Source: Nocardia vinacea | Lineage (GTDB): Bacteria; Actinomycetota; Actinomycetes; Mycobacteriales; Mycobacteriaceae | Reading direction: 5' to 3' | Assembly: GCF_035920345.1 (NCBI RefSeq) | Contig: NZ_CP109149.1 | Span: 6,386,001-6,450,000 of the forward strand | Length of the DNA stretch: 64,000 nucleotides | Part shown: one piece after another, positions 5,264-37,427 of the stretch | Layout: each line of letters starts with the position of its first letter | Position numbering within the stretch: the stretch's first letter is position 1 | Program-made: the position numbers and the translations under genes | The notes under the pieces: generated by a model | Told to the model about the DNA's origin: nothing | What the model saw: the letters and a program-made list of their open reading frames with translations, nothing else | Database searches by the model: none

Positions 5264-7425
5264 CAGTTCTCCTGGGATTCGGTGGGATCGACGACGGCGA
5301 GCACGGCGCCGACATCGACCTGCTGGCCGACGGTGACATTGAGGGCGCTGAGCACGCCGGCGGCGGGCGCGGAGATGGTGTGCTCCATCTTCATGGCCTC
5401 CAGCCACAGAATCGGCTGGCCCTGTTCGACGGCGCTGCCGACCTCGGCGCCGATGCGAATCACGCTGCCCGGCATGGGCGCGAGCAGTGAACCGTGCGCG
5501 ACCTGATCGGCCGGATCGCTGAAGCGCGGCAGTCTGCGCACCGATACCGGCCCGAGTGGGGAATCCACGCAGACCAGATCGCCGTAGCGGGCGATATCGA
5601 ATTGCCTACGCACCAGCCCGCGTTCGCCCGGAACCGCGAGGACCACGCGCTCGGGCCCCGCCTGCACCAATTCGAGTCCGTCGTGACCGTCCACCGCGAC
5701 GCCGGTTCGGGTGAAGCGGTAACCGATGTCATGTGTTCCGCTGGTGCGGCTTTCGTACGATTTGTGCTGCGACTGCGACGGCAGATTTCGCCAGCCCGCG
5801 GGCAGCCCGCCGCCGACCCTGGCCGCCTGCCGGTTCGCCGCGGCATCCGCGAGTGCGGCGGCGACGATGGACAGTGCCTCATCGGTCTCGGTCGCCAAAG
5901 GTGCAGAGAGCGAATCCAATCCGTGCGTTTCGAAAAATGCGGTATCGGTGTCTCCGGCCAGGAACGCCGGATGCCGCAGCACCCGTACAAGCAGATCGCG
6001 GTTGGTCACCAAACCGTGAATCTTGGCTCGCTGCAACGCCGTTGCCAACAACCGTGCCGCTTCGTCACGAGTGTCGGCGTAGGAGATGACCTTCGCGAGC
6101 ATCGGGTCGTAGTGCACACCGACATCCGAACCATCCACCACACCGGTATCCAGACGCACGCCCGGCCGATCGAGAACATCGAATTCGGTTACTACCGAAG
6201 GGATATCGAGCCGGTGCACCGTCCCGCTCTGCGGCTGCCACTCGTTCGCGGGATCCTCGGCATACAACCGAACCTCGATCGAGTGCCCATGCAGTGGTGG
6301 CGGCACGGCAGCCAACTCGCCACCGGCCGCGACCTCCAACTGGGACCGCACCAGGTCCAGTCCGGTGGTGCACTCGGTGACCGGATGTTCCACCTGCAGC
6401 CGGGTATTCATCTCCAGGAAGAAGAAGTCACCCGCCTCGTCGGCGAGAAATTCCACGGTCCCGGCACCGGTGTACCCGATCGCACCGGCCGCCAGCCGGG
6501 CCGCCTCGAACAGCCGCTCGCGCATGCTCTGTCCATCGGCCGTGCGCGCTGGCCCTGCGTGCGCGCGTACACCTTGCGATGTACCGCTTTGTCGGCCCCC
6601 ACCGCGTGCCTCCGGGCCTGACGCGCGCATGGCGTCGATCCGCTCGACCAGCGGGGACGGCGCCTCCTCGACCACCTTCTGATGGCGGCGCTGAATGGAG
6701 CATTCCCGCTCGCCGACGGCCCAGATGGTGCCGTAGGTATCGGCCATGACCTGGACCTCGATATGTCTGCCGGTCTCCAGGTACCGCTCGCAGAACACCG
6801 TCGGATCGCCGAATGCCGATTCGGCTTCCCGGCGCGCGGCGGCGATCTGCGGTTCCAGATCGGCGAGTTCGCGCACCACACGCATGCCGCGCCCGCCACC
6901 ACCTGCGGAGGCCTTGATCAGCACCGGCAGCTGCGCCGCGGTGACCTCGTCGGGATCGAGTTCGGCGAGTACCGGCACTCCGGCCGCGTCCATCATCTTC
7001 TTGGAAGCGACTTTCGAACCCATCTGCTCGATGGCCTCGACCGGCGGCCCGATCCACACCAGCCCGGCCGCCAGCACAGCCCGTGCGAATTCCGCATTCT
7101 CGGAAAGAAATCCGTAGCCGGGATGGATGGCGTCAGCACCGGTGGCCAAGGCCGCCTCGATGATCAGTTCGCCGCGCAGGTAGGTCTCGGCCGGTGTGTT
7201 GCCCGGAAGACGCACCGCCGCATCGGCTTCGGTGACATGTGGTGCCGCGGCATCCGCATCGGAGTAGACCGCGACCGTGCCGATCCCCATACGACGACAG
7301 GTCGCGAAAACCCGGCGGGCGATCTCACCACGGTTGGCTACCAAAACATTGGTGATGCGCCCACCCATCACCCGACCGCCACCCCTCATCGAATCGCTGT
7401 GCGATGCTGTCATTTCGGCCCTCAC
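5263..7425 (-). CDS. Biotin-dependent acyl-CoA carboxylase alpha subunit (AccA2/AtuF-like), with in-frame insertion
   Basis: The 720-residue protein joins an N-terminal biotin carboxylase (VLVANRGEIARR near residue 27, ATP-grasp loop SAGGGGRGMR near residue 170) to a C-terminal biotinyl domain with the EAMKMEH biotinylation motif. It carboxylates biotin for the beta subunit encoded just upstream. Two oddities are visible. First, about 18 residues before the conserved start match a repeat shared with the beta subunit and ackA. Second, about 36 Gly/Arg-rich residues encoded at 6539-6633 interrupt the carboxylase domain between EEAPSPLVERID and the RERLFEAARLA helix. Start is GTG 7425, overlapping the beta stop as GTGA, or ATG 7413. 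Operon order matches Rv0973c. Confidence 0.88.
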   Translation of the reverse strand: MRAEMTASHSDSMRGGGRVMGGRITNVLVANRGEIARRVFATCRRMGIGTVAVYSDADAAAPHVTEADAAVRLPGNTPAETYLRGELIIEAALATGADAIHPGYGFLSENAEFARAVLAAGLVWIGPPVEAIEQMGSKVASKKMMDAAGVPVLAELDPDEVTAAQLPVLIKASAGGGGRGMRVVRELADLEPQIAAARREAESAFGDPTVFCERYLETGRHIEVQVMADTYGTIWAVGERECSIQRRHQKVVEEAPSPLVERIDAMRASGPEARGGGRQSGTSQGVRAHAGPARTADGQSMRERLFEAARLAAGAIGYTGAGTVEFLADEAGDFFFLEMNTRLQVEHPVTECTTGLDLVRSQLEVAAGGELAAVPPPLHGHSIEVRLYAEDPANEWQPQSGTVHRLDIPSVVTEFDVLDRPGVRLDTGVVDGSDVGVHYDPMLAKVISYADTRDEAARLLATALQRAKIHGLVTNRDLLVRVLRHPAFLAGDTDTAFFETHGLDSLSAPLATETDEALSIVAAALADAAANRQAARVGGGLPAGWRNLPSQSQHKSYESRTSGTHDIGYRFTRTGVAVDGHDGLELVQAGPERVVLAVPGERGLVRRQFDIARYGDLVCVDSPLGPVSVRRLPRFSDPADQVAHGSLLAPMPGSVIRIGAEVGSAVEQGQPILWLEAMKMEHTISAPAAGVLSALNVTVGQQVDVGAVLAVVDPTESQEN
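6539..6633. repeat. Palindromic interspersed element, copy 1 (in carboxylase alpha)
   Basis: The 95-bp segment is bounded by the near-perfect inverted repeat GCCGTGCGCGC / GCGCGCATGGC. Inside are GGCCCTGCGTG on one side and GCCTCCGGGCCTGACGC on the other, both shared with the copies at 14738 and 37336. It carries about 40 extra bp in the centre compared with those copies. It stays in frame in the host gene and encodes a Gly/Arg/Ala-rich loop. Confidence 0.75.
7360..7413 (-). repeat. Start-codon-proximal repeat, copy 1 (carboxylase alpha)
   Basis: The 54 bp from ATG 7413 are nearly identical to the first 54 bp of the beta subunit gene (9071) and close to the beginning of ackA (26157). They encode TASHSDSMRGGGRVMGG. 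The repeat lies exactly between the start codon and the conserved domain. Confidence 0.85.
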
Positions 7426-9071
7426 ATCCGGAAGACGCCGAAGCCATCGGCGCCCTTGACTGGGGCACTGTGAATGGCCGACAACGCCATTCCCAATACC
7501 GTGCGGGTATCACGGGGGTCGATCACACCGTCGTCGTACAGCCGCCCCGACATGAACATCGGCAGTGATTCGGCCTCGATCTGCGCCTCCACCATCGCGC
7601 GCATCCCGGCATCGGCCTCCTCGTCGAACGGTATGCCCTTGGACTCGGCGGCCGCGCGGCCCACGATCGAGATCACACCGGCCAGCTGTGCGCCGCCCAT
7701 GACCGCGGATTTCGCACTGGGCCAAGCGAAAACGAACCGCGGATCGTAGGCGCGACCGCACATGCCGTAATGGCCCGCACCATAGGACGCGCCCATCAGC
7801 AGCGAAATATGCGGCACCTTCGAATTCGAGACCGCGTTGATCATCATCGCGCCGTGTTTGATGATGCCCTTCTGTTCGAACTCCTTGCCGACCATGTAGC
7901 CGGTGGTGTTGTGCAGGAACAGCAGTGGCGTATTCGACTGGTTGGCCAGCTGGATGAACTGGGTCGCCTTCTGTGACTCCTCCGAGAACAGCACGCCGCG
8001 CGCATTGGCGAGAATGCCGACCGGATAGCCGTGCAGTTCCGCCCATCCGGTGACCAGGCTGCTGCCGTAGAGGGGTTTGAATTCGTCGAAATCGGAGCCG
8101 TCGACGACGCGGGCGATCACCTCGCGCGGATCGAACGGAATCTTCAGATCGGACGGGACGATACCGAGCAGATCCTCCTGGTCGTACCGCGGCTCGATCA
8201 CCTCGGCGCGCGGTGACGGGCCCTGCTTCTTCCAGTTCAGGCGCTTGATAATGGAGCGGCCGATGCGGATCGCGTCCTGCTCGTCGACCGCCAGATAATC
8301 CGCCAGACCCGAGACGCGCGCGTGCATATCCGCGCCGCCGAGCGATTCGTCATCGGATTCCTCGCCGGTGGCCATCTTGACCAGCGGTGGTCCGCCGAGG
8401 AATACCTTGGAGCGCTCCTTGATCATCACCGTGTAGTCGGACATGCCCGGGATGTAGGCACCGCCTGCGGTGGAATTACCGAAAACCAAAGCGATGGTGG
8501 GGATTCCGGCCGCCGATGCCCTGGTGAGATCACGGAACATCCGCCCGCCGGGTACGAAGACTTCCTTCTGCGTCGGCAGATCCGCGCCGCCGGATTCGAC
8601 GAGTCCGATCACCGGTAGTCGGTTCTGCATGACGATGTCGTTCATGCGCAGGTTCTTGCGCAACGTCCACGGATTCGAGGTGCCGCCGCGTACCGTGGGA
8701 TCCGGCGCGACGATCATGCATTCCACACCCTCGACAATGCCGATACCGCACACCACGCTCGCCCCGACGTGGAAGTCGCTGCCCCACGCGGCAAGTGGGC
8801 ACAGTTCGAGGAATGGCGAATCCTCGTCGATGAGCAGTTCGATGCGCTCGCGCGCGGTCAACTTGCCGCGCTTGCGATGCCGGGCCAGCTTATCCGGGCC
8901 ACCGCCCGCGATGGCCTTGGCGAATTCGGCCTCCACCTCGGCGAGTTTGCTGGTCATGGCCTCGGCCGCGGCCGTGTACTCCGGCGATGCGGTATCGAGT
9001 GTGGTGCGTAGTGTCGGCCCACCCGTCGCCCGACCGCCACCCCTCATCGAATCGCTGCGCGATGCTGTCAT
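7422..9071 (-). CDS. Acyl-CoA carboxylase beta subunit (carboxyltransferase, AccD2/AtuC-like)
   Basis: The 549-residue carboxyltransferase has the two crotonase-like halves of the family. Examples are RKRGKLTARERIELL near residue 70, SGGADLPTQ near residue 150, and the second oxyanion region GASYGAGHYGMCGRAYDP near residue 435. With the alpha subunit it should transfer CO2 to a methylcrotonyl- or geranyl-type CoA. ATG 9071 overlaps the upstream stop as TGATG, so translation is coupled and this start is favoured over a longer open frame. The first 18 residues are the repeat-derived leader shared with carboxylase alpha and AckA; homologues normally start near LRTTLDTASPEY. Confidence 0.9.
   Translation of the reverse strand: MTASRSDSMRGGGRATGGPTLRTTLDTASPEYTAAAEAMTSKLAEVEAEFAKAIAGGGPDKLARHRKRGKLTARERIELLIDEDSPFLELCPLAAWGSDFHVGASVVCGIGIVEGVECMIVAPDPTVRGGTSNPWTLRKNLRMNDIVMQNRLPVIGLVESGGADLPTQKEVFVPGGRMFRDLTRASAAGIPTIALVFGNSTAGGAYIPGMSDYTVMIKERSKVFLGGPPLVKMATGEESDDESLGGADMHARVSGLADYLAVDEQDAIRIGRSIIKRLNWKKQGPSPRAEVIEPRYDQEDLLGIVPSDLKIPFDPREVIARVVDGSDFDEFKPLYGSSLVTGWAELHGYPVGILANARGVLFSEESQKATQFIQLANQSNTPLLFLHNTTGYMVGKEFEQKGIIKHGAMMINAVSNSKVPHISLLMGASYGAGHYGMCGRAYDPRFVFAWPSAKSAVMGGAQLAGVISIVGRAAAESKGIPFDEEADAGMRAMVEAQIEAESLPMFMSGRLYDDGVIDPRDTRTVLGMALSAIHSAPVKGADGFGVFRM
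9018..9071 (-). repeat. Start-codon-proximal repeat, copy 2 (carboxylase beta)
   Basis: The first 54 bp of the beta gene encode [17 protein letters not shown]. This matches the copy at 7413 with only a few substitutions, in the same reading frame and in the same position directly after ATG. Confidence 0.85.
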
Positions 9072-10216
9072 CACTGGTACCCCAATCGTTTCGCCGCCAG
9101 TCCGGTCAGGATTTCCGTGGTGCCACCGCCGATGCCGAGAATGCGGATATCGCGGTACTGCCGCTCGACCTCGGATTCGCGCATATAGCCGAGGCCGCCG
9201 AACAGTTGCACGGCCTGATTGGCCACCCATTCGCCCGCCTCCACAGCGGTGTTCTTCGCGAAGCAGACCTCGGCGATCAAATCGGTTTCGCCATCGGCGC
9301 TGCGCTGCACCACATCTCGGGTATAGACGCGGGCCACGTCGATGCGGCGCGCCATTTCGGTCACCGTGTTCTGCACGGCCTGCCTGCTGATCAGCGGGCG
9401 ACCGAAGGTCTCTCGGTTGCGCACCCAGTCCAAGGTCAGGTCGAGGCAACGCTGGGCCTGTGAATATGCCTGCACCGCGAGCCCGACCCGCTCGCTGACG
9501 AATGCACCGGCGATCTGATAGAAGCCGGAATTCTCCGGTCCGACCAGATTCTCCACCGGCACCCGAACATCCACATAGGACAGTTCGGCGGTATCGGAGG
9601 CCAGCCATCCCATCTTGTCGAGCTTGCGGCTGACCGTGAAGCCCGGAGTGCCCTTCTCCACCACCAGCAGCGAAATACCGCCGGAGCCGGGGCCGCCCGT
9701 GCGCACGGCGGTCACCACGAAATCGGCGCGCACACCCGAGGTGATATAGGTCTTCGCGCCATTGACGATGTAATGGTCGCCGTCGCGGCGCGCGGTGGTG
9801 GTGAGGTGGCCGACATCGGAGCCGCCACCAGGTTCGGTGATGGCGAGCGAGCCGATCTTCTCCCCGGCCAGTGTCGGCCGTGCGAAGCGCTCGATCAGAT
9901 CTTCGTTGCCCGAGGCGATAATGTGCGGCACCGCGATACCGCAGGTGAACAGCGAGGCGAACAGGCCACCCGAGCAACCGGCCTGATGCATTTCCTCGCA
10001 GACGATCATGGCGTCGATACCGTCACCACCGGAACCGCCTGCGAATTCCGGGAATTGGATGCCGAGCAGTCCGAGCGCTCCGGCCTTCTTGTGCAGTTCG
10101 CGCGGGATCTCGCCGTCGCGCTCCCAGGCGTCCAGGTACGGAAGAACCTCACGCTCGGCGAAACCCCTTACGGTGGCGCGCAATTCGCGCCGTTCCGGCG
10201 TATTCCACGGACTCAT
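9071..10216 (-). CDS. Acyl-CoA dehydrogenase, FadE13/AtuD-like (citronellyl-CoA dehydrogenase type)
   Basis: A 381-residue acyl-CoA dehydrogenase with the LAITEPGGGSDVGHL motif near residue 127 and the NRETFGRPL segment near residue 265. The usual C-terminal catalytic Glu of the YEGT motif is replaced (GIGGGTTEI). A Glu in SERVGLA near residue 242 lies where isovaleryl- and long-chain enzymes carry their base, so catalysis is probably of that type. It overlaps the AtuA-like gene by 4 bp (ATGA). Position corresponds to M. tuberculosis fadE13. It probably performs the first oxidation of a branched or terpenoid acyl-CoA. Confidence 0.85.
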   Translation of the reverse strand: MSPWNTPERRELRATVRGFAEREVLPYLDAWERDGEIPRELHKKAGALGLLGIQFPEFAGGSGGDGIDAMIVCEEMHQAGCSGGLFASLFTCGIAVPHIIASGNEDLIERFARPTLAGEKIGSLAITEPGGGSDVGHLTTTARRDGDHYIVNGAKTYITSGVRADFVVTAVRTGGPGSGGISLLVVEKGTPGFTVSRKLDKMGWLASDTAELSYVDVRVPVENLVGPENSGFYQIAGAFVSERVGLAVQAYSQAQRCLDLTLDWVRNRETFGRPLISRQAVQNTVTEMARRIDVARVYTRDVVQRSADGETDLIAEVCFAKNTAVEAGEWVANQAVQLFGGLGYMRESEVERQYRDIRILGIGGGTTEILTGLAAKRLGYQ

Positions 10217-11925
10217 AGCAACTCCAATGGGATATCAACATGACGCGAGCGCAGCCATTCGCCGAGCCCCTTGGCCTGCGGATCGAAGCGGGCCTGGTAG
10301 GCCACACCCTGTCCGAGCAGACCCTCGATAATGAAGTTCACGGCACGCAGATTCGGCAGCACGTGCCGGGTGACGGTCAGCGGCGCGGCTTCGGGCAACA
10401 GTTCCTTGATCCGCTCCACCGTCAGCGTATGCGCAAGCCACCGCCACTGCTCATCGGTGCGCACCCACACGCCGATATTGGCATTGCCGCCCTTATCGCC
10501 GCTGCGGGCCAGCGCGATCGCGCCCAGTGGTGCCCGGCGAGTTCCGCTGGCGGGCAATGGCTCCGGCAGTTCCGGCTCGGCCACGTCCGCCAATTCCAGC
10601 GTGTCCGATGCGGGTGCGATATCGACGCGAGTGCCCTGCGGGAGCACGGCCGCGTGCGGCACCTCGGCGGCATCGACGAATCCCGGTGTGTACACGCCGT
10701 ACGGCGAACCATTGCCGGGCAGGCTGGTGAAGTTGGTACCCGGATAACTGGCCAATGCCAGCTCGACCGCGACATTGGAGAAGGAGCGGCCGACCTTGTT
10801 CGGATCCGGATCACGAACCACGCAGCGCAGCAAAGCGCTTGCCTGCTCCTCGGTTTCGGCGTCCGGCCGGTCGAGACGCGCCAAGGTCCAGGTCAACTCG
10901 GCGGGCCGCACGGGCAGCCAGGACTCCAGCTGTCGTTGCGCCAGTCCGGCTTTCGCCTCGATATCGAGTCCGGTGAGCACGAACTCCATCTCGTTGCGGA
11001 AACCGCCGAGAGTATTGAGCGAAACCTTGAGCTGCGGCGGCGGCGCTTCGCCGGTCACCCCGCTGATCAGTACCCGATCCGGACCTTCTTGATTCAGCTC
11101 GATCGTGTCCAGCCGCGTGGTGACATCCGGCCCCGCATAACGCGCACCCTGGATCTCGTACATCAGCTGTGCCGCAACAGTATCCACCGTAACCGCACCA
11201 CCCGTGCCCTGATGCTTCGTGATGACGCTGCTGCCATCCCTGCGCACTTCGGCGATCGGGAAACCGGGCCGTCCGAGATCGGCCAACTCGGTGAAGAATG
11301 CGAAGTTACCGCCGGTGGCCTGCGTACTGCACTCGATGACATGTCCGGCCACCACCGCACCGGCAAGCTGGTCGTAATCGGTTCGCCCCCAACCGAAATG
11401 AGCGGCGGCCGGGCCGACGATCACGGAGGCGTCGGTGACCCGACCGGTAACCACGATATCGGCGCCCGCATTCAAACATTCGACGATGCCCCAGGCACCG
11501 AGATAGGCATTCGCGGTCAGCGGTGACCCGAGGCCGAGTTCGCCCGCACGACTGAGCAGGTCGTCACCCTCGACGTGCGCGACCTTGGCATCGAGTCCGA
11601 GATCCGCCGCAACCTTGCGCAGCTTCTGCGCCAACCCGGCCGGGTTGAGTCCGCCAGCATTGGTGACGATCTGAACATTGCGTTCCAGTGCCAGCCCGAG
11701 GCAGTCCTCGATCTGCCGGACGAAGGTCTTGGCATAGCCGAGACTGGGATCCTTCATCCGGTCGCGGCCGAGGATCAGCATGGTCAACTCGGCGAGATAG
11801 TCCCCGGTGAGCACATCGAGCTGCCCGCCCTCGAGCATCTCCCGCATGGCGCTGAGCCGATCACCGTAGAACCCGGAACAGTTGCCGATTCGGATCAGCT
11901 CCGGATCGGCGGCCAGCATACTCAT
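10213..11925 (-). CDS. AtuA-like acyclic terpene utilisation protein (DUF1446 family)
   Basis: The 570-residue product begins with IRIGNCSGFYGDRLSAM and contains LTGDYLAELTMLIL and IVTNAGGLNPAGLA. These are characteristic of the AtuA/DUF1446 family encoded beside geranyl-CoA carboxylases; the M. tuberculosis counterpart is Rv0976c. A second, C-terminal domain begins near residue 450. The biochemical role of AtuA is not established, and a hydratase or carboxylase-accessory role has been proposed for such operons. It is the first gene of the leftward operon, starts at ATG 11925 and has a palindromic operator about 105 bp upstream. Confidence 0.82.
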   Translation of the reverse strand: MSMLAADPELIRIGNCSGFYGDRLSAMREMLEGGQLDVLTGDYLAELTMLILGRDRMKDPSLGYAKTFVRQIEDCLGLALERNVQIVTNAGGLNPAGLAQKLRKVAADLGLDAKVAHVEGDDLLSRAGELGLGSPLTANAYLGAWGIVECLNAGADIVVTGRVTDASVIVGPAAAHFGWGRTDYDQLAGAVVAGHVIECSTQATGGNFAFFTELADLGRPGFPIAEVRRDGSSVITKHQGTGGAVTVDTVAAQLMYEIQGARYAGPDVTTRLDTIELNQEGPDRVLISGVTGEAPPPQLKVSLNTLGGFRNEMEFVLTGLDIEAKAGLAQRQLESWLPVRPAELTWTLARLDRPDAETEEQASALLRCVVRDPDPNKVGRSFSNVAVELALASYPGTNFTSLPGNGSPYGVYTPGFVDAAEVPHAAVLPQGTRVDIAPASDTLELADVAEPELPEPLPASGTRRAPLGAIALARSGDKGGNANIGVWVRTDEQWRWLAHTLTVERIKELLPEAAPLTVTRHVLPNLRAVNFIIEGLLGQGVAYQARFDPQAKGLGEWLRSRHVDIPLELL

Positions 11926-12031
11926 CAGCTGGAAGGCCCTCCTGTGCGGCGAACCGTCCCGGCGCGCCGCGTTGCGCCGCCGGTGGAGTCCGCGTTCCGG
12001 AGTCCAGCATCACACCCGGTCCAGAAAAAAG

Positions 12032-12047
12032 CAAGCATGCGTGCTTG
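12032..12047. promoter_or_regulatory. Palindromic TetR-type operator
   Basis: CAAGCATGCGTGCTTG is an inverted repeat of CAAGCA around TGCG. It lies between the divergent AtuA-like gene (start 11925) and the small membrane protein (start 12083). Its A/T-flanked, 16-bp form is typical of fatty-acid TetR operators. The TetR at 2574-3191 is the natural candidate ligand; binding is inferred. Confidence 0.55.
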
Positions 12048-12082
12048 TTAATCGAGCAGGGCACGCGAGGCAGAATGACCAG

Positions 12083-12226
12083 ATGTCGTCCGTCATCCTG
12101 TTCGCGCTGGCCGGATTCCTGCTGGGCGGGGCCTACTCCACCTGGAAGACCGCCCGCCCACTCGCCATCGCCCTCATGGTGCTCGCCGCCTTAGCGGCTG
12201 CAGGCGCGGTCGCCTGGTTGATGTAG
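12083..12226 (+). CDS. Very small two-helix membrane protein
   Basis: A 47-residue protein that is almost entirely hydrophobic. It has one helix from residue 3 to 16 (VILFALAGFLLGGA), a short YSTWKTAR loop, and a second helix to the end (IALMVLAALAAAGAVAWLM). It is oriented divergently from the AtuA-like operon and shares its regulatory region. Small proteins of this form are common in Nocardia and Rhodococcus and have no known role. The only ribosome-binding candidate is a weak GAGGC about 15 bp upstream. Confidence 0.6.
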   Translation: MSSVILFALAGFLLGGAYSTWKTARPLAIALMVLAALAAAGAVAWLM

Positions 12227-13951: not shown

Positions 13952-14710
13952 TCATGCATCGCGTTGGTTGACCATAACCAGTGCGCCGCCGAAGACAATT
14001 GCGACGAAAGCCGCGAAGTAGAGCAGGCCGCCCCACGGTCCCCAGTGCCAGTTCGCCGTCGATTCCGAGGCGCTGTAGAAGTGGCTCGCATTCGCGAAGG
14101 GCAGGAACGGCTGCACATTGCGCCCGAAGCTGCCGAACGCGCCGAGCAGCGGCTCGATCAGCAGTGGCCAGAGCACGATCAGCGAAATCGCCGCGGCCGA
14201 CTGCCGGACCAGCACACCGATACCGACCGCGAGAATGACGCTGAGCAGGGCATAGACCGGAATGCCGTAGATCTCGCGCCAGGCATCGCCACCGGAGAGC
14301 TTCAGGTTGTTGCTCGCATCGCCGCCGATCGCCTTGGCGATCGCGAAGGCGGCGAAGGCCAGCACGATGGTGAGTACCGCCCCGTACACGCCGACCAGAC
14401 CCGCCTTGGTGGCGATCACCTTGGCGCGATGCGGTGTCGCCTGGTAGGTGGTCCGGATGATGCCGAAGCGGTATTCGCTGGTCACGGTCAAGGTGGCCAT
14501 GATCATCAGGACCATCACGCCGAATCCGCTGATCCCGCCGACCGCGGTGGCGACGGTCAGGTCGAGCGCATTCTCCTTGCCCGACGACGAGCGGGCCACC
14601 GCCGCGAACAGCGCGGCCAGGCCGAGGGCGAGCACCACCACGATCGCCGAGCACCACCACGGCGACCTGGTCGAGGTGAGCTTGATACGTTCCGCTGCCA
14701 GCACGCCCAT
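13952..14710 (-). CDS. ABC-2 type transporter permease
   Basis: The 252-residue protein has about six hydrophobic membrane segments, beginning WWCSAIVVVLALGLAALFAAV near residue 18. It has the layout of an ABC-2 or bacitracin-exporter-like permease. It shares the stop/start region with the ATPase upstream (both boundaries at 14710), so the two form one translationally coupled exporter. The substrate is not identifiable. Similar pairs in actinobacteria export lipids or small toxic compounds. Confidence 0.82.
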   Translation of the reverse strand: MGVLAAERIKLTSTRSPWWCSAIVVVLALGLAALFAAVARSSSGKENALDLTVATAVGGISGFGVMVLMIMATLTVTSEYRFGIIRTTYQATPHRAKVIATKAGLVGVYGAVLTIVLAFAAFAIAKAIGGDASNNLKLSGGDAWREIYGIPVYALLSVILAVGIGVLVRQSAAAISLIVLWPLLIEPLLGAFGSFGRNVQPFLPFANASHFYSASESTANWHWGPWGGLLYFAAFVAIVFGGALVMVNQRDA

Positions 14711-15726
14711 CAGAGCGCACCTCCCATCGCTGTGTAGGACCCGGCGTCCGCGGGGCCCTGCGTGGTTACGCGAGCTGCCGCCTCCGGGCCTGACGCTCCC
14801 GCCGGGTCGAAGCCTTCGCCGTGGTACTGCACCGCGCCGCCGGTCATCCGCATGAATGCCTCCTCCAGCGAGGCCCGCTGCGGCGCCAATTCGTACAGGG
14901 TGATGTCGTTCGAACCGGCCAGCTTGCCGACCGCGTCGCTGGTCACCCCGGCCACGACCAATGCGGCGCCGTCCTGGCCCGTGCCGTCCTCGCGGACGGT
15001 CATGCCATTGGAGGTGAGCAGGCTGCGCAACTGCTCCAGCTGCGGACTGCGCACGCGCACCGACTGTTCCGAGGCGCGCTCGATGAATTCCTTGGTGGTC
15101 GAATCGGAAATCAGCTGACCGCGTCCGATCACGACCAAATGCTCTGCGGTCTGGGCCATTTCGGAGAGCAGATGGCTGGAGACCAGCACGGTCCGCCCCT
15201 CGGCCGCGAGCCGCTGCATGAACCGGCGGATCCAGAGGATGCCCTCGGGGTCCAGGCCGTTCACGGGCTCGTCGAACAGCAGTACCGGCGGATCGCCGAG
15301 CAGCGCCCCGGCCAGGCCGAGCCGCTGCGACATGCCGAGGGAGAAGCCACCGGCATTCTTACTCGCCACCTCGGACAGGCCGACCAGCCGCAGCACCTCG
15401 TCCACGCGGGACATGGCGATTTCGTTGGATGCGGCCATCCACTGCAGATGCGCGCGGGCCGAACGGTTCGGATGCACCCACTTGGCATCCAGCAGCGCAC
15501 CGACGGCGCGCAGCGGATGGTCCAGTTCGTGGTACGGCTTGCCCTGGATCAATGCGGTGCCCGCGGTGGGCTTGTCCAGGCCGAGGATCATCCGCATGGT
15601 GGTGGATTTACCGGCGCCGTTCGGCCCAAGAAAGCCCGTCACCTGTCCGGGTCGAACGGTGAAGGAGAGATCTTGAACCGCGACAGTCTGCCCGTAATGC
15701 TTGGTCAGGCCCCTCAGCTCGATCAT
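14710..15726 (-). CDS. ABC transporter ATP-binding protein with repeat-encoded tail
   Basis: A 338-residue ATPase with Walker A GPNGAGKSTT at about residue 35, signature SLGMSQRLGLAGAL near 130, Walker B LLFDEPVNGLDPEG near 155 and the H-loop SSHLLSEM. The domain order matches BcrA/CcmA-like exporters. The last 30 residues, after MRMTGGAVQYHGEG, are not typical of the family. They are encoded by a palindromic element (14738-14808) that also occurs in two other genes of this window. The gene starts at ATG 15726, downstream of a 16-bp palindrome at 15785. Confidence 0.87.
   Translation of the reverse strand: MIELRGLTKHYGQTVAVQDLSFTVRPGQVTGFLGPNGAGKSTTMRMILGLDKPTAGTALIQGKPYHELDHPLRAVGALLDAKWVHPNRSARAHLQWMAASNEIAMSRVDEVLRLVGLSEVASKNAGGFSLGMSQRLGLAGALLGDPPVLLFDEPVNGLDPEGILWIRRFMQRLAAEGRTVLVSSHLLSEMAQTAEHLVVIGRGQLISDSTTKEFIERASEQSVRVRSPQLEQLRSLLTSNGMTVREDGTGQDGAALVVAGVTSDAVGKLAGSNDITLYELAPQRASLEEAFMRMTGGAVQYHGEGFDPAGASGPEAAARVTTQGPADAGSYTAMGGAL
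14738..14808. repeat. Palindromic interspersed element, copy 2 (in ABC ATPase 3' end)
   Basis: Ends GACCCGGCG / CGCCGGGTC form a perfect 9-bp inverted repeat. The core reads GGGCCCTGCGTGGTTACGCG and then GCCGCCTCCGGGCCTGACGC, closely matching the copy at 37336. In the host gene it is read from the opposite strand to the copy in the ferredoxin reductase, and it adds an in-frame tail containing SGPEAAARVTTQGPADAG. Confidence 0.8.
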
Positions 15727-30875: not shown

Positions 30876-31673
<798 letters not shown>

Positions 31674-31696
31674 CCCCCGCCCCCGCGGGCGATCAA

Positions 31697-31757
31697 GATC
31701 AGGTGGAACTGGTGGCGTAGCCTTCTCGCGGTTTGCCGCGATGGTTTCCACCTGATC
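31697..31757. terminator. Two-level palindrome between convergent genes
   Basis: Outer arms GATCAGGTGGAA / TTCCACCTGATC are a perfect 12-bp inverted repeat. An inner CGCGG-TTTG-CCGCG hairpin sits near the centre. It separates the HAD phosphatase from the leftward MarR gene and is probably a bidirectional terminator. Confidence 0.55.
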
Positions 31758-31810
31758 ATTTGTCCATTCGGGCGCTGGGATTAGCGACAGTGCCGAACAG
31801 CAGCTGGGGA

Positions 31811-32263
31811 TCAGGTTTCGTCGGTGATGGTGGCTAGGGCGGTGGAGAGTTGGGTCATGAGGTGGGCGGTGAGGGCGAGTTGGTCGGGGCCGAGTTTGGC
31901 GGCGAGCCGTTTCGCCATGACTGCGTGCTGCGGGTTTATGCGTTTGATTGCCTCGCGGCCTGTGTCGGTGACCGCTACGAGTTTGGCGCGGCGGTGCGCC
32001 GGATTGGGTTGGAATTCGGCAAGTCCCTTGTCCACCAATAGGTCCGCGATGCGCTGCACGCTCTGCCTGGTGATCCCCATGGCTCGGGCGATTCCGGCCA
32101 CCGGCAGCGGTTCGCGCAGCACCGCGCCGAGCACCTGCCACCAGGCCGCCGTAATTCCGGCGGGAGCGGCCAATTCCTCTGCGATGGTGAGGAATTGACC
32201 GTTCAGCTGGAATGACGTGATAGCGGCCGTTGCGAAGAGATCCTGCTCGGGCGTGTCACTCAT
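31811..32263 (-). CDS. MarR-family transcriptional regulator
   Basis: The 150-residue protein has the MarR winged-helix pattern: GITAAWWQVLGAVL, then VAGIARAMGITRQSVQRIAD, then a wing with NPAHRRAKLVAVTDTGREA. It is 45 bp downstream of the DJ-1/PfpI gene in the same direction, so the two probably form an operon. A large palindromic operator covers the start of the DJ-1 gene; autoregulation through it is the simplest model but is inferred from position. Confidence 0.85.
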   Translation of the reverse strand: MSDTPEQDLFATAAITSFQLNGQFLTIAEELAAPAGITAAWWQVLGAVLREPLPVAGIARAMGITRQSVQRIADLLVDKGLAEFQPNPAHRRAKLVAVTDTGREAIKRINPQHAVMAKRLAAKLGPDQLALTAHLMTQLSTALATITDET

Positions 32264-32308
32264 ATCGGAAACTCCTATCCGGGTCCGCGACTCACCGCGG
32301 ATTCTTCC

Positions 32309-32950
32309 TCACGCGGAAGCGACGACCCGCTGCGCCTCGTACTCGGAAAGCGCGGCGAATCCCGCCGGATCGCTCTTGCCGAACAAGCGGTACCACGCGT
32401 CCAGCACGTAGGGCTCGTAGACGTCGAGCCTGCGAAGCACCTCGCGAGCGAATTCGAAAGGCGCGGTCGGACCCGCGGTGATGAGATCGCCATCCAGTAC
32501 CGCCGCCTGGTCCAGATAGCGATCACCACCCGAATATCCGCTGTAGGCAAGGTATTCCGCAGCCGCGCCGGTATGGGCGTGGTTATCGAGTAGACCCTCC
32601 TTCGCCAATCCGAAGGTGGCACCGCAGATCGCCGCGACCGGAACCCCCGCGTCCAGGAACTCCCGCGCCTTGTGCGCGAAGGGCACTAGTTCGCCCGTCT
32701 CCCAGGTGTCGGCGCCGGGCAGGATCAACATCGCGCTCGCGGCGGGCGTGAGATCGGCGAGCAGCACATCCGGCACGATGCGCATTCCACCCGTCGTGAT
32801 GATCGGATCGGCGGTGAGCCCAACGGTTCGCACCCGGAAGGTTCCCGGCGCTTTCTGCCAGCTGGGCCGATTGATATGCGCGGTCGCCGCACCGACCTCC
32901 CAATCGGCGAGCGTGTCGTAAACGGCCATGTGAACTGTCTTCGTAGCCAT
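32309..32950 (-). CDS. DJ-1/PfpI-family protein
   Basis: The 213-residue protein has a DJ-1/PfpI glutamine-amidotransferase-like fold with the nucleophile elbow AAICGATFGLA (Cys near residue 110). It also has MLILPGADTW and a conserved ADW near the start, typical of the GATase1 proteins related to ThiJ/PfpI. The function may be a chaperone, glyoxalase or isonitrile-hydratase-like activity; the sequence does not decide. The ATG at 32950 lies at the edge of a 36-bp operator, so transcription and initiation are probably strongly controlled. Confidence 0.82.
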   Translation of the reverse strand: MATKTVHMAVYDTLADWEVGAATAHINRPSWQKAPGTFRVRTVGLTADPIITTGGMRIVPDVLLADLTPAASAMLILPGADTWETGELVPFAHKAREFLDAGVPVAAICGATFGLAKEGLLDNHAHTGAAAEYLAYSGYSGGDRYLDQAAVLDGDLITAGPTAPFEFAREVLRRLDVYEPYVLDAWYRLFGKSDPAGFAALSEYEAQRVVASA

Positions 32951-32985
32951 GACAGTATGCTGTCATATTTGACAGCATACTGTCA
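32950..32985. promoter_or_regulatory. 36-bp double-dyad operator
   Basis: TGACAGTATGCTGTCA and TGACAGCATACTGTCA are exact inverted copies separated by TATT, and each arm is itself a TGACAG-N4-CTGTCA dyad. The site overlaps the DJ-1 start codon and extends toward its promoter. It could bind two regulator dimers, with the MarR protein encoded downstream the first candidate. Confidence 0.7.
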
Positions 32986-32990
32986 ATGCC

Positions 32991-33437
32991 TCAGCGTCCG
33001 CGTTCGATCTTCGCCAAATGCGCGATATTGGCGCGATCCTGCGCATCAGCACTCGGTTCACCGCCGAACCACGCGTCCAGAATCTCCGTCAGTTCCGCCC
33101 GGGATGTCGAACGCAGGCTCAGCGCAAGCACATTCGCGTCATTCCACTTCCGCGCACCAGCCGCCGTCGCCGCATCACCACACAGCGCTGCCCGGATCCC
33201 CGCCACCTTGTTGGCGGCAATAGAAGCCCCGGTCCCCGTCCAACAGCACACCACCCCCTGCTCCGCCCGCCCCTCGGCCACATCGCGCGCTGCCGCCGCA
33301 CTGGCCCAAGCCCAGTCATCCCGCTCACTATCCGACAACGCCCCATGCACCAACGTCTCGAACCCCCGCCGCCCGAGCTCCACCACCAGCTCCTCGGCCA
33401 CCCCCACCCGCTCATCCGCCGCAACCGAAATTCGCAT
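32991..33437 (-). CDS. RpiB/LacAB-family sugar-phosphate isomerase
   Basis: The 148-residue protein shows the RpiB-type pattern: ISVAADERVGVAEELV start, GVVCCWTGTGASIAANKVAGIRAAL containing the catalytic Cys region, and NDANVLALSLR. Ribose-5-phosphate isomerase B and galactose-6-phosphate isomerase share this fold. Because a bona fide rpiB normally lies elsewhere in these genomes and this protein lacks the usual GSDHAG start, its sugar substrate is uncertain. ATG 33437 is chosen; upstream sequence is a terminator region. Its stop is only 5 bp from the DJ-1 operator, so read-through is possible. Confidence 0.78.
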   Translation of the reverse strand: MRISVAADERVGVAEELVVELGRRGFETLVHGALSDSERDDWAWASAAAARDVAEGRAEQGVVCCWTGTGASIAANKVAGIRAALCGDAATAAGARKWNDANVLALSLRSTSRAELTEILDAWFGGEPSADAQDRANIAHLAKIERGR

Positions 33438-33486
33438 ACCCCAAGCGTAATAACGTCCCCACTGCACAGCACCGAAAACCGCGAGC

Positions 33487-33516
33487 GGGCCCGTCCTCGG
33501 TGCCGAGGACGGGCCC
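33487..33516 (-). terminator. 14-bp perfect hairpin after SDR gene
   Basis: GGGCCCGTCCTCGG and its complement flank a 2-nt loop, 11 bp past the SDR stop and 50 bp before the RpiB-like start. It is a strong terminator candidate. Confidence 0.65.
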
Positions 33517-33526
33517 ACCGCACCGG

Positions 33527-34270
33527 TCACCAGGCAACGGGGCCGAGGCGATCGATGAAGATCCCGCTCGGCCCGTCGGCGTCGATCGTGGCGAGTTCGA
33601 GGATCGAGTCGGTGCCCTCGGTGACCGTCAGTTGGCCGGTGTGATGGTTCATATCGGTCGCCGCGAATTTACGATTCGCGACCTCACCAGGAGTCGCGAC
33701 GTTGAACTTGATCTTCGGCAGCGCCTGGGCGTACCGCAGGGTGATCATGTTCAGCGCCGCTTTCGACGAGCTGTAGGCGAGCTCGTGCATCTTCGAGACG
33801 GGCTGCTCCGGATCGGTCACGACCGCGAAGGAACCGCCACCACTGGACACCATCACCACCCGCGGATTGTCCGCCGCCTGCAGCAAGGGCAGGAACGCGT
33901 GCGTGACCCTGATCGGTCCGTACACGTTGGTGTCGTAGACGGAATGGATTTCGTCCGCGGTCGCGTCCGCGGGCGCAACAATATTCCCCGGTGCACCGGC
34001 GTTGTTGATCAACACATCCAGCCGGTCGGTGTGCCCGCTAACGAGCCGTACCGCATCCGACACCGACTCCTCCGAGGTCACATCCAGCGGCACCATCACG
34101 ACGTTCACCCCCTCAGCGGCGAGTTTGTCCGCGGCGGCCTGTCCTCGAGCCGCGTCGCGCGAGCCGAGGAAAACCGTCCACCCCTGCGCCCCGAGCCGCC
34201 GCGCCGCTTCGAGACCGAGTCCCTTATTGGCTCCGGTGATCAACACTGTGGTTTGTTCCGTGTTCGTCAT
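33527..34270 (-). CDS. Short-chain dehydrogenase/reductase
   Basis: A 247-residue classical SDR with TGANKGLGLEAARRLG cofactor motif, LINNAGAPG, and the catalytic Ser plus YSSSK tetrad (near residues 145-165). It probably uses NADP(H) given the NKG and downstream Arg residues. ATG 34270 is chosen; a GTG two codons upstream is possible. It resembles actinobacterial NAD(P)-dependent carbonyl reductases with unknown substrate. It is transcribed divergently from the DUF456 membrane protein. Confidence 0.88.
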   Translation of the reverse strand: MTNTEQTTVLITGANKGLGLEAARRLGAQGWTVFLGSRDAARGQAAADKLAAEGVNVVMVPLDVTSEESVSDAVRLVSGHTDRLDVLINNAGAPGNIVAPADATADEIHSVYDTNVYGPIRVTHAFLPLLQAADNPRVVMVSSGGGSFAVVTDPEQPVSKMHELAYSSSKAALNMITLRYAQALPKIKFNVATPGEVANRKFAATDMNHHTGQLTVTEGTDSILELATIDADGPSGIFIDRLGPVAW

Positions 34271-34415
34271 GCCCACTAAGACGCACCAGCCCGCTCGCGC
34301 TGTGACAACCTGTGAGCGGCCTCACAAACACCGGGAATCGACACTGTGCACCGACCCGGCGAATAGGCCAGAATCCTGGCAGCGTGACAAGACGCGGAAA
34401 GCGGAGGGACCGGCA

Positions 34416-34898
34416 GTGTCAGCTTGGGGTGAGGTCGTTGTCGGCCTGGTAATTCTGGTCGGTCTGGTCGGGATCATCGTCCCGATTCTGCCGGGGGCCA
34501 TTTTGATCTTCGGGGCCATTGCCGTGTGGGCGTTCATGACCGGGGGCGCGACGGCGTGGATCGTACTCGCCATCAGCACAGCATTTTTGGTGCTGTCCGG
34601 CATCGTCAAATACACCTGGCCGGGCCGGAAGATGAAGGATGCGGGCGTATCCAATCGCGCGCTGTTCATCGGCGCGATCTTCGGCATTGTCGGCTTCTTC
34701 ATCATCCCGGTGGTCGGGTTGTTCGTGGGATTCGTTCTGGGTGTGTATCTTTCGGAGCTGCACCGACTCCGCGACAACCAACCTGCTTGGCAGGCAACGG
34801 TTCACGCCCTCAAGGGTGTGGGCCTGTCGATGCTGATCGAGCTCTTCGGTGCGCTGTTGGCCACGGGCGTCTGGGGCGTCGGCGCGATTATCGCCTGA
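34416..34898 (+). CDS. DUF456 membrane protein
   Basis: A 160-residue protein with four or five hydrophobic helices and Gly-rich turns. It shows LVGIIVPILPGAILIFGAIA near residue 16 and GIFGIVGFFIIPVVGLFVGF-like segments near 90, matching the DUF456 family, whose function is unknown. GTG 34416 has a GGAGGG ribosome-binding site 8 bp upstream; the longer open frame reads through the SDR gene and is not real. Confidence 0.85.
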   Translation: MSAWGEVVVGLVILVGLVGIIVPILPGAILIFGAIAVWAFMTGGATAWIVLAISTAFLVLSGIVKYTWPGRKMKDAGVSNRALFIGAIFGIVGFFIIPVVGLFVGFVLGVYLSELHRLRDNQPAWQATVHALKGVGLSMLIELFGALLATGVWGVGAIIA

Positions 34899-34965
34899 TC
34901 GTCAGCGTTTACCTGCCCGCCGTCGCTGCACCTGTGGATCGCGCATGCCCACTGCCAGGTCGCGC

Positions 34966-35838
34966 TCACTCGATGATCGGGAACGGAATCGTATCCGCCG
35001 GTTCGAGTTTCGGTAGCTCATCGCGCCGCAGCGGCAGGGTCGGCTGCTCGGTGCGGTGGATCGGCAGGGTCGGCGTCGGATCGGCCTGGATCACTCGTTC
35101 GCGGGCGGGCAGTCGATAGAACGCCCGCGCATTGTCTTCCAGCACCTTGAACATATCGGTGCCCACCACATCGCAGATCAGATCGACATCGGAATCCTGG
35201 AACGGTCGCCCCGCGCGGGTGCCGGGCAGATCGGTGCCGAACATCAGCGCTTCGGGATTGACCGCGTGGATCCGGCGCAGCGTATCGGCCACTTTCATAT
35301 GCACCCGCCCGAAACCGGTCGCTTTCACCCGCGCCCCGCGATCCACCAGATCCAGCAGATAGGGCAGACCCTCCTCGGACATGCCGAGATGGTCGATGGA
35401 GAACACCGGCAGCTTCGAGATCACCGGCTGCATCGAGGTGAGCATGTTGCCGTCGATATACACCTCGACGTGCCAGCCGACGAGGTCGTGCGCACGCAAT
35501 GCCTGCAGTGTCAGCGCGGTGATATCCGCGGCTGCGCGCTTGACGTTGAACCGCAGCGCGCGCACACCGATCCGGTCGAGTTCGATGATCTCTTCGTCGG
35601 TGGCGTCGGGGTCCAGCGCGGTGACGCCGACCCACCCCGCGCCGAGCTCCGCCAGCGCCGCTTTCAGGTACGTCTGATCGCTGCCTTGGAAGGATCCGCT
35701 GACCACGGCGCCGCCGCCGACATCGAAGCGCGACATACGCTTTCGATAATCGGCGATGGTGAACGGGTCGGGCAGGTAGCCCTGGTTCTCGGCCAGCGGG
35801 AACCGCGGGTCGAAGATGTGGAGATGGGCATCGAACAC
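34966..35838 (-). CDS. Amidohydrolase family 2 (TIM-barrel metal-dependent hydrolase)
   Basis: The 290-residue protein begins with the metal-binding FDAHLHIFDPRFP and ends the barrel with MFGTDLPGTR. Intermediate His residues (GWHVEVY, IDHLG) fit the amidohydrolase-2 family that includes 2-pyrone-4,6-dicarboxylate lactonase. A Pro/Leu-rich C-terminal extension of about 40 residues is unusual. GTG 35838 is the start. Substrate is unknown; lactone or decarboxylase chemistry is typical of the family. It is not obviously co-transcribed with the ferredoxin reductase downstream of it on the map. Confidence 0.8.
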   Translation of the reverse strand: MFDAHLHIFDPRFPLAENQGYLPDPFTIADYRKRMSRFDVGGGAVVSGSFQGSDQTYLKAALAELGAGWVGVTALDPDATDEEIIELDRIGVRALRFNVKRAAADITALTLQALRAHDLVGWHVEVYIDGNMLTSMQPVISKLPVFSIDHLGMSEEGLPYLLDLVDRGARVKATGFGRVHMKVADTLRRIHAVNPEALMFGTDLPGTRAGRPFQDSDVDLICDVVGTDMFKVLEDNARAFYRLPARERVIQADPTPTLPIHRTEQPTLPLRRDELPKLEPADTIPFPIIE

Positions 35839-35963
35839 TTGTACAGAATGCCTCAGTCACGGAATTTCCGCTGCCGCGGACCCGACAGATTTCGCGCTGC
35901 CGCAGCCGTGTCGGATTGTCGAGAACCACAGGAGGTGACGGTCACCCCCTGTGGGCATTCGCG

Positions 35964-37427
35964 CTAGACCTTGTGCGGCTCGCTGGCGCGCAGCATGTCC
36001 TCGCGCTCGACGACCTTGACGCGCTCGCGGCCCTCCGGCTCGCCGAGGGCGCGCTCGTGCGCGTCCAGGCGGTACCAGCCCTGCCAGGTGGTGAACGGGA
36101 TGCCCTTGCTCTCGAGGAATTCGGTGACTGCCTGTAGCTCCGGATGCTTAGCCGGTGCGAAGTTCACGCTGTCGTCGAGCAGGCAAGCAACGGTCTCGTT
36201 GGCGTCGCCCTTGGTGTGACCGATGAGGCCGACCGGACCGCGCTTGATCCAGCCGGTGACGTAGGTGGCGGGCAGATAGCGATCCGGACCGTCGGCGTCT
36301 TCGTCGGCGAGGACGCGTCCGGCCTCGTTCGGAACGACACCGGCCTGATCGTCGAACGGCAGGTTGGTGAGGTTCTGCGACAGGTAGCCGACGGCGCGGT
36401 AGACGGCCTGGACGTCCCAGTCCCTGAACACGCCGGTGCCCTTGACATTGCCGGTGCCGTCGAGCTGGGTGCGCTCGGTGCGCAGGCCGGCGACCTTGCC
36501 GTCCTCGCCGAGGATCTCGGCCGGGGACTCGAAGAAGTGCAGGAAAAGCTTGTGCGGGCGGTTGCCGACGTCGCGGATGGCCCACTGCTCCAGGGTGTTG
36601 GAGATCATGTCGACCTGCTTGGAGTGCCGGCGCGCGGCCTCGGAACCCTCGTCGTAGTCGATGTCCTCGGGATCGACGATGACCTCGATGGTCGGCGAAT
36701 GGTCGAGTTCGCGCAGCTCGAGCGGGGTGAACTTGGCCTGCGCCGGGCCGCGACGGCCGAAGACGTGCACCTCGATCGCCTTATTGGCCTTCAGGCCGTT
36801 GTAGACGTTCGGCGGGATCTCGGTCGGCAGCAGTTCGTCGCCGGTCTTGGCCAGCACGCGCGCCACGTCGAGTGCGACATTGCCGACACCGAGGACCGCG
36901 ACCTTCTCCGCCTCCAGCGGCCAGGTGCGCGGCACGTCCGGATGACCGTCGTACCAGGAGACGAAGTCCGCGGCGCCGTAGCTGCCGTCCAGGTCGATGC
37001 CGGGGATCGGCAGCGCGCGGTCGGCGTTGGCGCCGGTGGAGAAGATCACCGCGTCATAGAACGTGCGCAGATCGTCGAGGGTGATGTCGGTGCCGTAGTC
37101 GATATTGCCGAGCAGGCGGACCTGCGGCTTGTCCAGCACCTTGTGCAGAGCGGTGATGATGCCCTTGATGCGCGGATGATCCGGCGCGACGCCGTAGCGG
37201 ATCAACCCGAACGGCGCGGGCATGCGCTCGTACAGGTCGATGCTCACCTCGGCATCGGACTTCATCAACGCGTCGGCGGCGTAGATACCGGCCGGTCCTG
37301 CGCCCACGATCGCGATGCGAAGCGGGCGAGGCCCCGCGGTGTGCGCGTCAGGCCCGGAGGAGGCAGCTTGCGTGACCACGGAGGGCCCGTGCACACCGCT
37401 AGTCGACTCTGCACTGTGTTCGGTCAT
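35964..37427 (-). CDS. Adrenodoxin-reductase-type ferredoxin-NADP+ reductase, with repeat insertion
   Basis: The 487-residue flavoprotein has the FprA layout: FAD motif IAIVGAGPAGIYAADALM, APFGLIRYGVAPDHPRIK, NADP motif VLGVGNVALDVARVL, and GWIKRGPVGLIGHTKGDA. It moves electrons between NADPH and ferredoxins, for P450 or iron metabolism. The first 34 residues precede the FAD motif and are mostly encoded by a palindromic element (37336-37399). A DtxR/IdeR-like iron box lies 46 bp upstream, so iron-responsive control is likely. It could serve the P450-ferredoxin pair encoded at 40-41.6 kb, but this is inference. Confidence 0.9.
   Translation of the reverse strand: MTEHSAESTSGVHGPSVVTQAASSGPDAHTAGPRPLRIAIVGAGPAGIYAADALMKSDAEVSIDLYERMPAPFGLIRYGVAPDHPRIKGIITALHKVLDKPQVRLLGNIDYGTDITLDDLRTFYDAVIFSTGANADRALPIPGIDLDGSYGAADFVSWYDGHPDVPRTWPLEAEKVAVLGVGNVALDVARVLAKTGDELLPTEIPPNVYNGLKANKAIEVHVFGRRGPAQAKFTPLELRELDHSPTIEVIVDPEDIDYDEGSEAARRHSKQVDMISNTLEQWAIRDVGNRPHKLFLHFFESPAEILGEDGKVAGLRTERTQLDGTGNVKGTGVFRDWDVQAVYRAVGYLSQNLTNLPFDDQAGVVPNEAGRVLADEDADGPDRYLPATYVTGWIKRGPVGLIGHTKGDANETVACLLDDSVNFAPAKHPELQAVTEFLESKGIPFTTWQGWYRLDAHERALGEPEGRERVKVVEREDMLRASEPHKV
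37336..37399. repeat. Palindromic interspersed element, copy 3 (in ferredoxin reductase)
   Basis: Perfect 9-bp ends GCGGTGTGC / GCACACCGC enclose the same core as the copies at 6539 and 14738 (GCGTCAGGCCCGGAGG on the plus strand). It encodes GVHGPSVVTQAASSGPDAH in frame near the N-terminus of the host protein. The orientation relative to the gene is opposite to that of the copy in the ABC ATPase. Confidence 0.8.

Follow-up and report, generated by a model that had tools for sequence, protein, structure and literature searches.

What kind of sequence comes to lie, in frame, inside three protein-coding genes that have nothing to do with each other? The question is raised by a stretch of 64,000 nucleotides of Nocardia vinacea DNA (contig NZ_CP109149.1, positions 6,386,001 to 6,450,000 of the forward strand; hereafter the window), in which an earlier reading, made from the letters alone, had marked three short palindromic segments with a common core at 6539–6633, 14738–14808 and 37336–37399. 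We conclude, with a probability of roughly 70%, that these are copies of a Nocardia-specific, non-autonomous family of mobile palindromes, which works like the Rickettsia palindromic elements (RPE) inside genes and like the mycobacterial interspersed repetitive units (MIRU) at gene starts. The evidence does not place the family in either group.

Three palindromes within open frames

The core is shared as the sequence-only reading had stated: the 16-mer CCTCCGGGCCTGACGC matches exactly in all three copies (window 6609–6624 and 14781–14796 on the plus strand, 37345–37360 on the minus strand), and the other half of the core is GGGCCCTGCGTGG-like in each. The ends are self-complementary arms that differ between copies, again as described, namely GGCCGTGCGCGC/GCGCGCATGGC in the carboxylase copy (with one G-T pair), GACCCGGCG/CGCCGGGTC in the ATP-binding cassette (ABC) copy and GCGGTGTGC/GCACACCGC in the reductase copy. 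The segments had been located correctly but too narrowly, because an AT-richer tail lies beyond one arm; the full insertions extend to about 6529, 14731 and 37408. The parts are listed below, with the arms, the carboxylase core and the ABC and reductase tails delimited from the sequence itself.

5263..7425, minus strand: host gene, biotin carboxylase / biotin carrier protein (Pfam Biotin_carb_N, CPSase_L_D2, Biotin_carb_C, Biotin_lipoyl; protein alignment)
6529..6538, plus strand: tail of the carboxylase copy, CTGTCCATCG, aligned by eye to the family tail TGTGTTCGATTT; absent at 14 empty orthologous loci
6538..6549, plus strand: arm 1 of the carboxylase copy, GGCCGTGCGCGC, complementary to 6623–6633; orthologous arms carry double compensatory changes
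6550..6624, plus strand: core of the carboxylase copy with enlarged inner loop (TGGCCCTGCGTG ... CCTCCGGGCCTGACGC); of normal length in relative G009
6623..6633, plus strand: arm 2 of the carboxylase copy, GCGCGCATGGC
14710..15726, minus strand: host gene, ABC transporter ATPase with the insert as C-terminal tail (Pfam ABC_tran; net insertion 72 nt against locus L162)
14731..14739, plus strand: tail of the ABC copy, TGTGTAGGA, absent from empty orthologues
14738..14746, plus strand: arm 1 of the ABC copy, GACCCGGCG
14753..14790, plus strand: 38-nt core of the ABC copy, the top-scoring copy of the genome with model R1 (E 4.1e-14)
14800..14808, plus strand: arm 2 of the ABC copy, CGCCGGGTC
35964..37427, minus strand: host gene, flavoprotein reductase with the insert as N-terminal extension (Pfam Pyr_redox_2; net insertion 75 nt against locus L132)
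37336..37344, minus strand: arm 2 of the reductase copy, GCACACCGC on the minus strand
37351..37388, minus strand: 38-nt core of the reductase copy (model R1, E 1.9e-13)
37391..37399, minus strand: arm 1 of the reductase copy, GCGGTGTGC on the minus strand
37400..37408, minus strand: tail of the reductase copy, AGTCGACTA on the minus strand; orthologues L131 and L136 have AGTATCGGATG

All three copies lie within open frames, where they encode the peptides ASGPEARGGG.., GASGPEAAARVTTQGPA and GPSVVTQAASSGPDA. One is read in the sense of the core and two antisense to it, and both orientations of the element are therefore open, as had been claimed. Peptide is indeed added to a carboxylase, an ABC ATPase and a reductase, but two of the additions are terminal extensions and only the carboxylase copy lies within a domain (ATP-grasp); the reductase, previously called a ferredoxin reductase, is assigned here as a flavoprotein reductase. 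The carboxylase insert corresponds to about residues 265–299 of the host protein, and structure prediction places it (about residues 266–300 there), weakly suggestively, as a coil between two helices (mean predicted local distance difference test score 52). Its enlarged inner loop recurs only in relative G061 among the 30 loci compared at this site, and relative G009 (L191) has a core of normal length. Other length variants of this biotin carboxylase loop (window 6534–6633) occur in Nocardia loci L192, L197, L199, L201, L202 and L203, which indicates that the loop is generally tolerant. Rfam contains no family that covers the element in the window.

In the window alone the similarity is unremarkable, since CCTCCGGGCCTGACGC with up to three mismatches occurs four times against 2.96 expected. 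This lack of enrichment is the one point in favour of chance similarity or ancestral protein sequence. The status of the window copies as a family rests on matches across the genome, not on their frequency in the window.

The family in Nocardia genomes

The sequence-only reading had proposed a profile search of the genome and its relatives. Our model, R1, is built from sequence only, using 15 copies; it covers 47 core positions, and the arms were left out on purpose. Against the 10.36 Mb genome it gave 75 matches at E ≤ 0.01, of which 62 were below 1e-6, and this is probably a lower bound because only 150 of 14,021 first-look candidates were scored. R1 missed the carboxylase copy at 6539 on account of its enlarged inner loop; with it the known copies number 76, and two further degenerate ones were found via their tails (L399, L403). 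R1 copies are present in 147 of 150 Nocardia genomes, N. vinacea included (41 candidates scored per genome, with stricter filters). An order-wide search at E ≤ 1e-5, with 20 candidates scored per genome, found matches in seven of 298 genomes, all of them Nocardia, and none in the other 291 (271 of these empty results entering as a count only). A smaller and deeper search, scoring 150 candidates per genome, matched 23 of 23 other Nocardia and none of 16 other genomes of the order. A plasmid search with two queries matched only the 2.66 Mb replicon NZ_LN868939 of N. farcinica NCTC11134, in which 25 places resemble a tandem copy, and a phage search with one query gave no match. Searches of open-licence papers yielded no description of the family; the available text of a survey of stem-loop families (PMC2267715) makes no mention of Nocardia.

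The 15 aligned copies, taken together with the empty sites, define the layout: tail, arm 1 and core come first, and a short spacer of TGAC or CGTCG separates the core from arm 2. The tail, TGTGTTCGATTT (often TGTRT..), is 10–13 nt long and arm 1 is 7–14 nt; the core of 38–39 nt (GGGCCCTNCGTGGTTACGC..GCTRCCKCCTCCGGGCC) is conserved and has self-folding capacity. Tandem arrays of two to three units occur both in this genome and in relatives, with a period of 71–82 bp (often 75 in relatives).

An 18-mer comprising the tail and the start of arm 1, allowing two mismatches, occurs 31 times in the N. vinacea genome against once for the reversed control. We read these 31 as 14 R1 copies, two degenerate copies of the family, seven unrelated sequences and eight copies of a second palindromic family. 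The latter is a hairpin of about 110 nt that opens with this tail (TGTGTTTGATTTGC, as a rule preceded by a C), and in some copies parts of it recur further downstream. Its copies in this genome are as follows.

1228507: second-family copy (L393)
3237724: second-family copy (L391)
5278920: second-family copy (L408), one more besides the eight among the 31
5302913: second-family copy (L396)
6520713: second-family copy (L398)
7041810: second-family copy (L400)
7700559: second-family copy (L404)
9729800: second-family copy (L407)
7179429: truncated second-family copy (L402)

The tail common to the two families suggests a common mobilising machinery.

By a crude codon-model gene call, 47 of 74 copies are intergenic, 18 are in genes and nine are at gene edges (one of the 75 was not extracted). 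A stricter test, which required a frame open through the element and coding sequence on both sides, places 14 of the 74 inside genes; together with the C-terminal ABC, N-terminal reductase and carboxylase copies this makes about 17 of 76. Compared with empty orthologues, the net insertions in genes are 72, 72, 72, 75, 75, 78, 81 and 105 nt, all eight being multiples of three (eight of nine in-gene sites were measured, the ninth having no usable alignment). The hosts are mutually unrelated and include the biotin carboxylase, ABC ATPases, the flavoprotein reductase, condensation domains and a linker of nonribosomal peptide synthetases (NRPS), a prolyl oligopeptidase, an Lhr-type helicase, two acyl-CoA dehydrogenases, a major facilitator superfamily transporter, a PucR regulator, a molybdopterin oxidoreductase and a Mur ligase. 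The claim of in-frame insertion into unrelated proteins is thus borne out beyond the window. Few frames supply the peptides: GPSVVTQAASSGPDA in the sense of the core, GATGPEAAARVTTQGPA and GGGSLRDHGGP-like peptides antisense to it.

Two groups of in-gene copies deserve separate mention. In the NRPS condensation domains at 5937582, 7912577 and 7919189 (L107, L114, L127) the in-frame copies lie near profile position 128–130, which may mean that the position is a hot spot or that an insertion was duplicated together with its module. Three copies lie within 1 kb in and around the Mur ligase gene (9779546, 9780032, 9780523; L126).

Among the 45 copies that are not wholly inside a called gene and have both neighbours called, 13 have divergent neighbours, none has convergent ones, and in the remainder the neighbours are co-directional, with 26 elements antisense to them and six in sense, so that every one lies 5' of at least one gene. 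At start codons, an open reading frame (ORF) from an ATG or GTG in the arm 2 region spans the element and stops in an ATGA or GTGA that is the start of the next gene, and the tail region resembles a ribosome-binding site, e.g. AGAAGGACACAGCATGA. When only cases with a downstream frame of 50 codons or more are counted, this coupling is found in 16 of 67 copies from relatives; shifted controls show it in 12 of 402 cases, and the same copies read in the opposite orientation in 3 of 67. The corresponding figures for N. vinacea are 5 of 74, 8 of 444 and 2 of 74. The start-codon signal is therefore clear in the relatives' sample, which consists of best-scoring and tandem loci and is not random, and weak in the genome itself.

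The bias of 26 to 6 and the absence of convergent placements fit the explanation that the elements are functional regulatory hairpins, that is, intercistronic RNA structures kept by RNA selection and spread by ordinary duplication. The conserved core and complementary arms fit it as well; the in-frame copies within enzymes and NRPS condensation domains do not.

Empty sites and paired arms

Comparison of the host genes with their orthologues, another check that had been proposed, revealed empty sites at all three window positions. For each site we read by eye the state of 30 orthologous loci (N. vinacea among them), which had scored best in a set drawn from 59 genomes. The carboxylase site holds the element in 10 loci and is empty in 14, and the other six are different length variants; at the reductase site seven have it, one is a deleted remnant and 22 are without; at the ABC site four have it, one is a remnant and 25 are without. 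Among named species, the carboxylase site is occupied in N. neocaledoniensis, empty in N. colli, N. amamiensis, N. concava, N. bovistercoris, N. suismassiliense, Nocardia sp. SYP-A9097 and N. mikamii, and a different variant in N. carnea; two further named Nocardia loci were unreadable. It had been said that the same residues in distant orthologues, or a lack of further copies in the genome, would point to chance or ancestry. Neither applies, because there are orthologues without the element and further copies exist. With 75 genomic copies, empty orthologues and mutually unrelated hosts, we regard chance or ancestry as refuted.

The picture is the same elsewhere in the genome. We compared 29 further copies, hand-picked from the 74, with three relatives, and by our reading the element is missing in at least one of the three at 22 of the 28 comparable sites. 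Clean empty sites are seen at 7626733 (CTGAGC|AGAAAGC), 4439171 (AACGCATT|ACCC) and 5937582 (CCAACTG|TCGGAAG), with a target duplication of 0–2 bp and no constant long duplication, and at the start-codon sites 3792465 and 9578732 the element is flanked by TCATG-type repeats. Such variable presence among close relatives again argues against regulatory hairpins kept in place by selection.

The arms were compared in 138 copies, 67 from relatives' loci and 71 from N. vinacea (three of the 74 lacked clear anchors). The longest stretch of exact complementarity between the two arms of a copy averaged 6.96, compared with 4.83 (standard deviation 0.10) when arms were paired at random, and none of 2000 shuffles reached the observed value, also when arms were dealt within two sub-families. 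A run of at least 8 bp was present in 33% of true pairs and 3.8% of mismatched pairs. The arms are therefore both copy-specific and self-complementary.

The sequence-only reading took the covarying arms as a sign of selection for a hairpin. In hand-picked sets of orthologous stems, double changes occur in 13 of 322 pair cells against 3.5 expected under independence, and nine of the 13 still pair, compared with 11 of 37 in a control with partners slid by 1–3 nt; the independent events are fewer than the cells, since some changes are common to related sequences. On the other hand, 23 of 41 single changes in these stems break a pair. Moreover, most of the variety in the arms lies between copies, where it is almost independent of the core. 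In N. vinacea copies at different sites, arm similarity is 0.67 for cores 70–85% identical and 0.67 for cores 92–100% identical (tandem pairs excluded; much alike within sub-families), and in relative G290 it rises weakly with core identity, from 0.64 to 0.72. Orthologous pairs at one site have arm similarities of 0.83–0.98 at comparable core identities (40 hand-picked pairs, only three with cores at least 97% identical). There are two ways to account for this: the arms acquire a new sequence during insertion or shortly afterwards, or the cores are homogenised between sites. Hairpin selection is plausible but not demonstrated.

These results bear on the regulatory explanation in both directions: the paired double changes agree with it, while the broken pairs, together with remnants from which the core has been deleted, disagree. 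On balance we consider regulatory hairpins an improbable account of the family.

The complementarity could also be purely mutational, with quasi-palindrome correction, or template switching during replication, copying one arm onto the other without selection or function. Correction of imperfect palindromes is an established process, the arms are complementary in genes and between genes alike, and double changes do occur at orthologous sites. However, many single changes have been left uncorrected, and the process gives no account of arms that differ where cores are 97–100% identical. We hold it to be somewhat unlikely.

A further possibility is that the arms come from the target: arm 2 would be duplicated target sequence, and arm 1 the reverse complement of arm 2. 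Individual sites resemble this: CTCATGC is duplicated at 3792465, CGCGCATGC occurs at the carboxylase site in L200, and the empty ABC site reads CGCCTGGTC, to be compared with arm 2, CGCCGGGTC. An anchored test of 93 copies (45 of the 138 were omitted as internal tandem units or for want of a recognisable tail or stem) gave a pooled value of 3.95 against 3.64 shuffled (7 of 5000 shuffles). However, the excess is lost within classes: 18 start-codon-like copies gave 4.78 against 4.49 (927 of 5000) and the 75 others 3.75 against 3.63 (729 of 5000). Direct repeats between left flank and arm 2, scored by local alignment in 71 N. vinacea copies, showed no excess (10.96 and 10.96), and the empty site of 7626733 does not contain the arm sequence. 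Target-derived arms are consequently rejected as a general rule, start-codon sites apart, and we judge this origin very improbable.

The arms of a copy pair with each other, but resemble neither those of sister copies nor (at least not significantly within classes) the empty target. As a rather unlikely but interesting possibility, we tentatively suggest that the mobile unit is core plus tail and that every insertion builds its outer stem afresh, one arm being written and the other copied from it in a hairpin-primed step.

Under our preferred interpretation as a mobile family, a trans-acting enzyme would move the element, recognising core and tail together with the folded shape of the outer stem, but not the stem sequence, in which case any self-complementary arms would suffice. 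After insertion, weak selection and palindrome correction may together keep the stem.

Several observations weigh against this interpretation. We found neither an enzyme that would mobilise the element nor an autonomous parent, and a search of the genome with tail patterns returned the second palindromic family but no complete tail-bounded transposon or insertion sequence. There are two Y1 (IS200-type) transposase genes in the genome, with near-equal scores (2764267–2764629, L389; 8507603–8507965, L390); no core-like or tail-like sequence lies within about 1.5 kb of either (3.4 kb around each), as judged with a scanner that found the element in 30 of 30 control loci. We saw no new transposition event, presence and absence at single sites could be due to deletion, and internal-deletion remnants do occur, at 9780032 in G061 and at 4448048 in G009. 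To these must be added the broken stem pairs, the weak start-codon coupling in N. vinacea and the crudeness of the gene calls behind the placements, whose codon model was trained on 1,608 codons.

Elsewhere in the window we note a SAM-IV (S-adenosylmethionine) riboswitch at 38255–38371, just past the reductase copy, and a cluster of five transfer RNA genes on the minus strand at 61491–61963.

Comparison with known palindromic elements

To our knowledge, protein-coding palindromes have been thought special to Rickettsia and its kin. Here a second, unrelated and GC-rich lineage has small hairpin elements that repeatedly add peptide to conserved enzymes, among them biotin carboxylase, a Mur ligase, an Lhr-type helicase and NRPS condensation domains. 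Because in-frame palindromes and MIRU-like behaviour at start codons, previously treated as separate phenomena, are joined in one family, the two ways of surviving in a dense genome can be studied side by side. Arms that are specific to each copy and yet complementary present a puzzle about mobility, and the tandem copies could be used for typing Nocardia.

The elements are small, non-autonomous, palindromic and present in many copies, like the miniature inverted-repeat transposable elements (MITE) such as Correia elements, ERIC and RUP (partly after the available text of PMC10969869, partly as general background). Unlike classical MITE, their terminal arms differ between copies, no parent insertion sequence was found with tail patterns in the N. 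vinacea genome, and the sites read have no target duplication of constant length.

Repetitive extragenic palindromes (REP), which are moved by REP-associated tyrosine transposases (RAYT), consist of a hairpin with a conserved unpaired 5' tag and insert without evident target duplication. The Nocardia element likewise combines a hairpin with a conserved 5' tail and has no evident target duplication; it differs in that the Y1_Tnp loci L389 and L390 are not flanked by the repeat.

MIRU are mobile-looking repeats of 40–100 bp that occur in tandem with variable copy number and insert at start codons, where a small ORF inside the repeat is coupled to what follows through a −4 nt overlap, according to the available text of PMC12548453 and PMC2734929. 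Sources differ on their hosts: PMC12548453 speaks of 'many mycobacteria', PMC4213456 of M. leprae and the M. tuberculosis complex only. Nocardia, too, has tandem arrays in which the copy number varies, and insertion at the start codon with an ATGA overlap is seen in a subset of copies only. Unlike MIRU, the Nocardia element has a strong outer hairpin, many copies away from start codons and in-frame insertion into proteins. The comparison was made by description; R1, the Nocardia core, matched none of the 291 non-Nocardia genomes of the order, which are expected to include mycobacteria.

RPE, also compared by description, are short palindromes found in frame within unrelated protein genes, to which they add a recognisable peptide (available text of PMC10969869). 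The Nocardia element is about half as long (72–105 nt net in the eight in-gene cases, compared with about 150 bp) and consists of a 38-nt core with freely varying outer arms and a tail, in a GC-rich actinobacterial host. It is read in both orientations and in more than one frame. The parallel with RPE drawn by the sequence-only reading holds for a mobile family inserted in frame, but copies in genes are a minority and others sit at start codons in the manner of MIRU. What the Nocardia element and RPE have in common is a palindrome carried in frame by unrelated coding genes.

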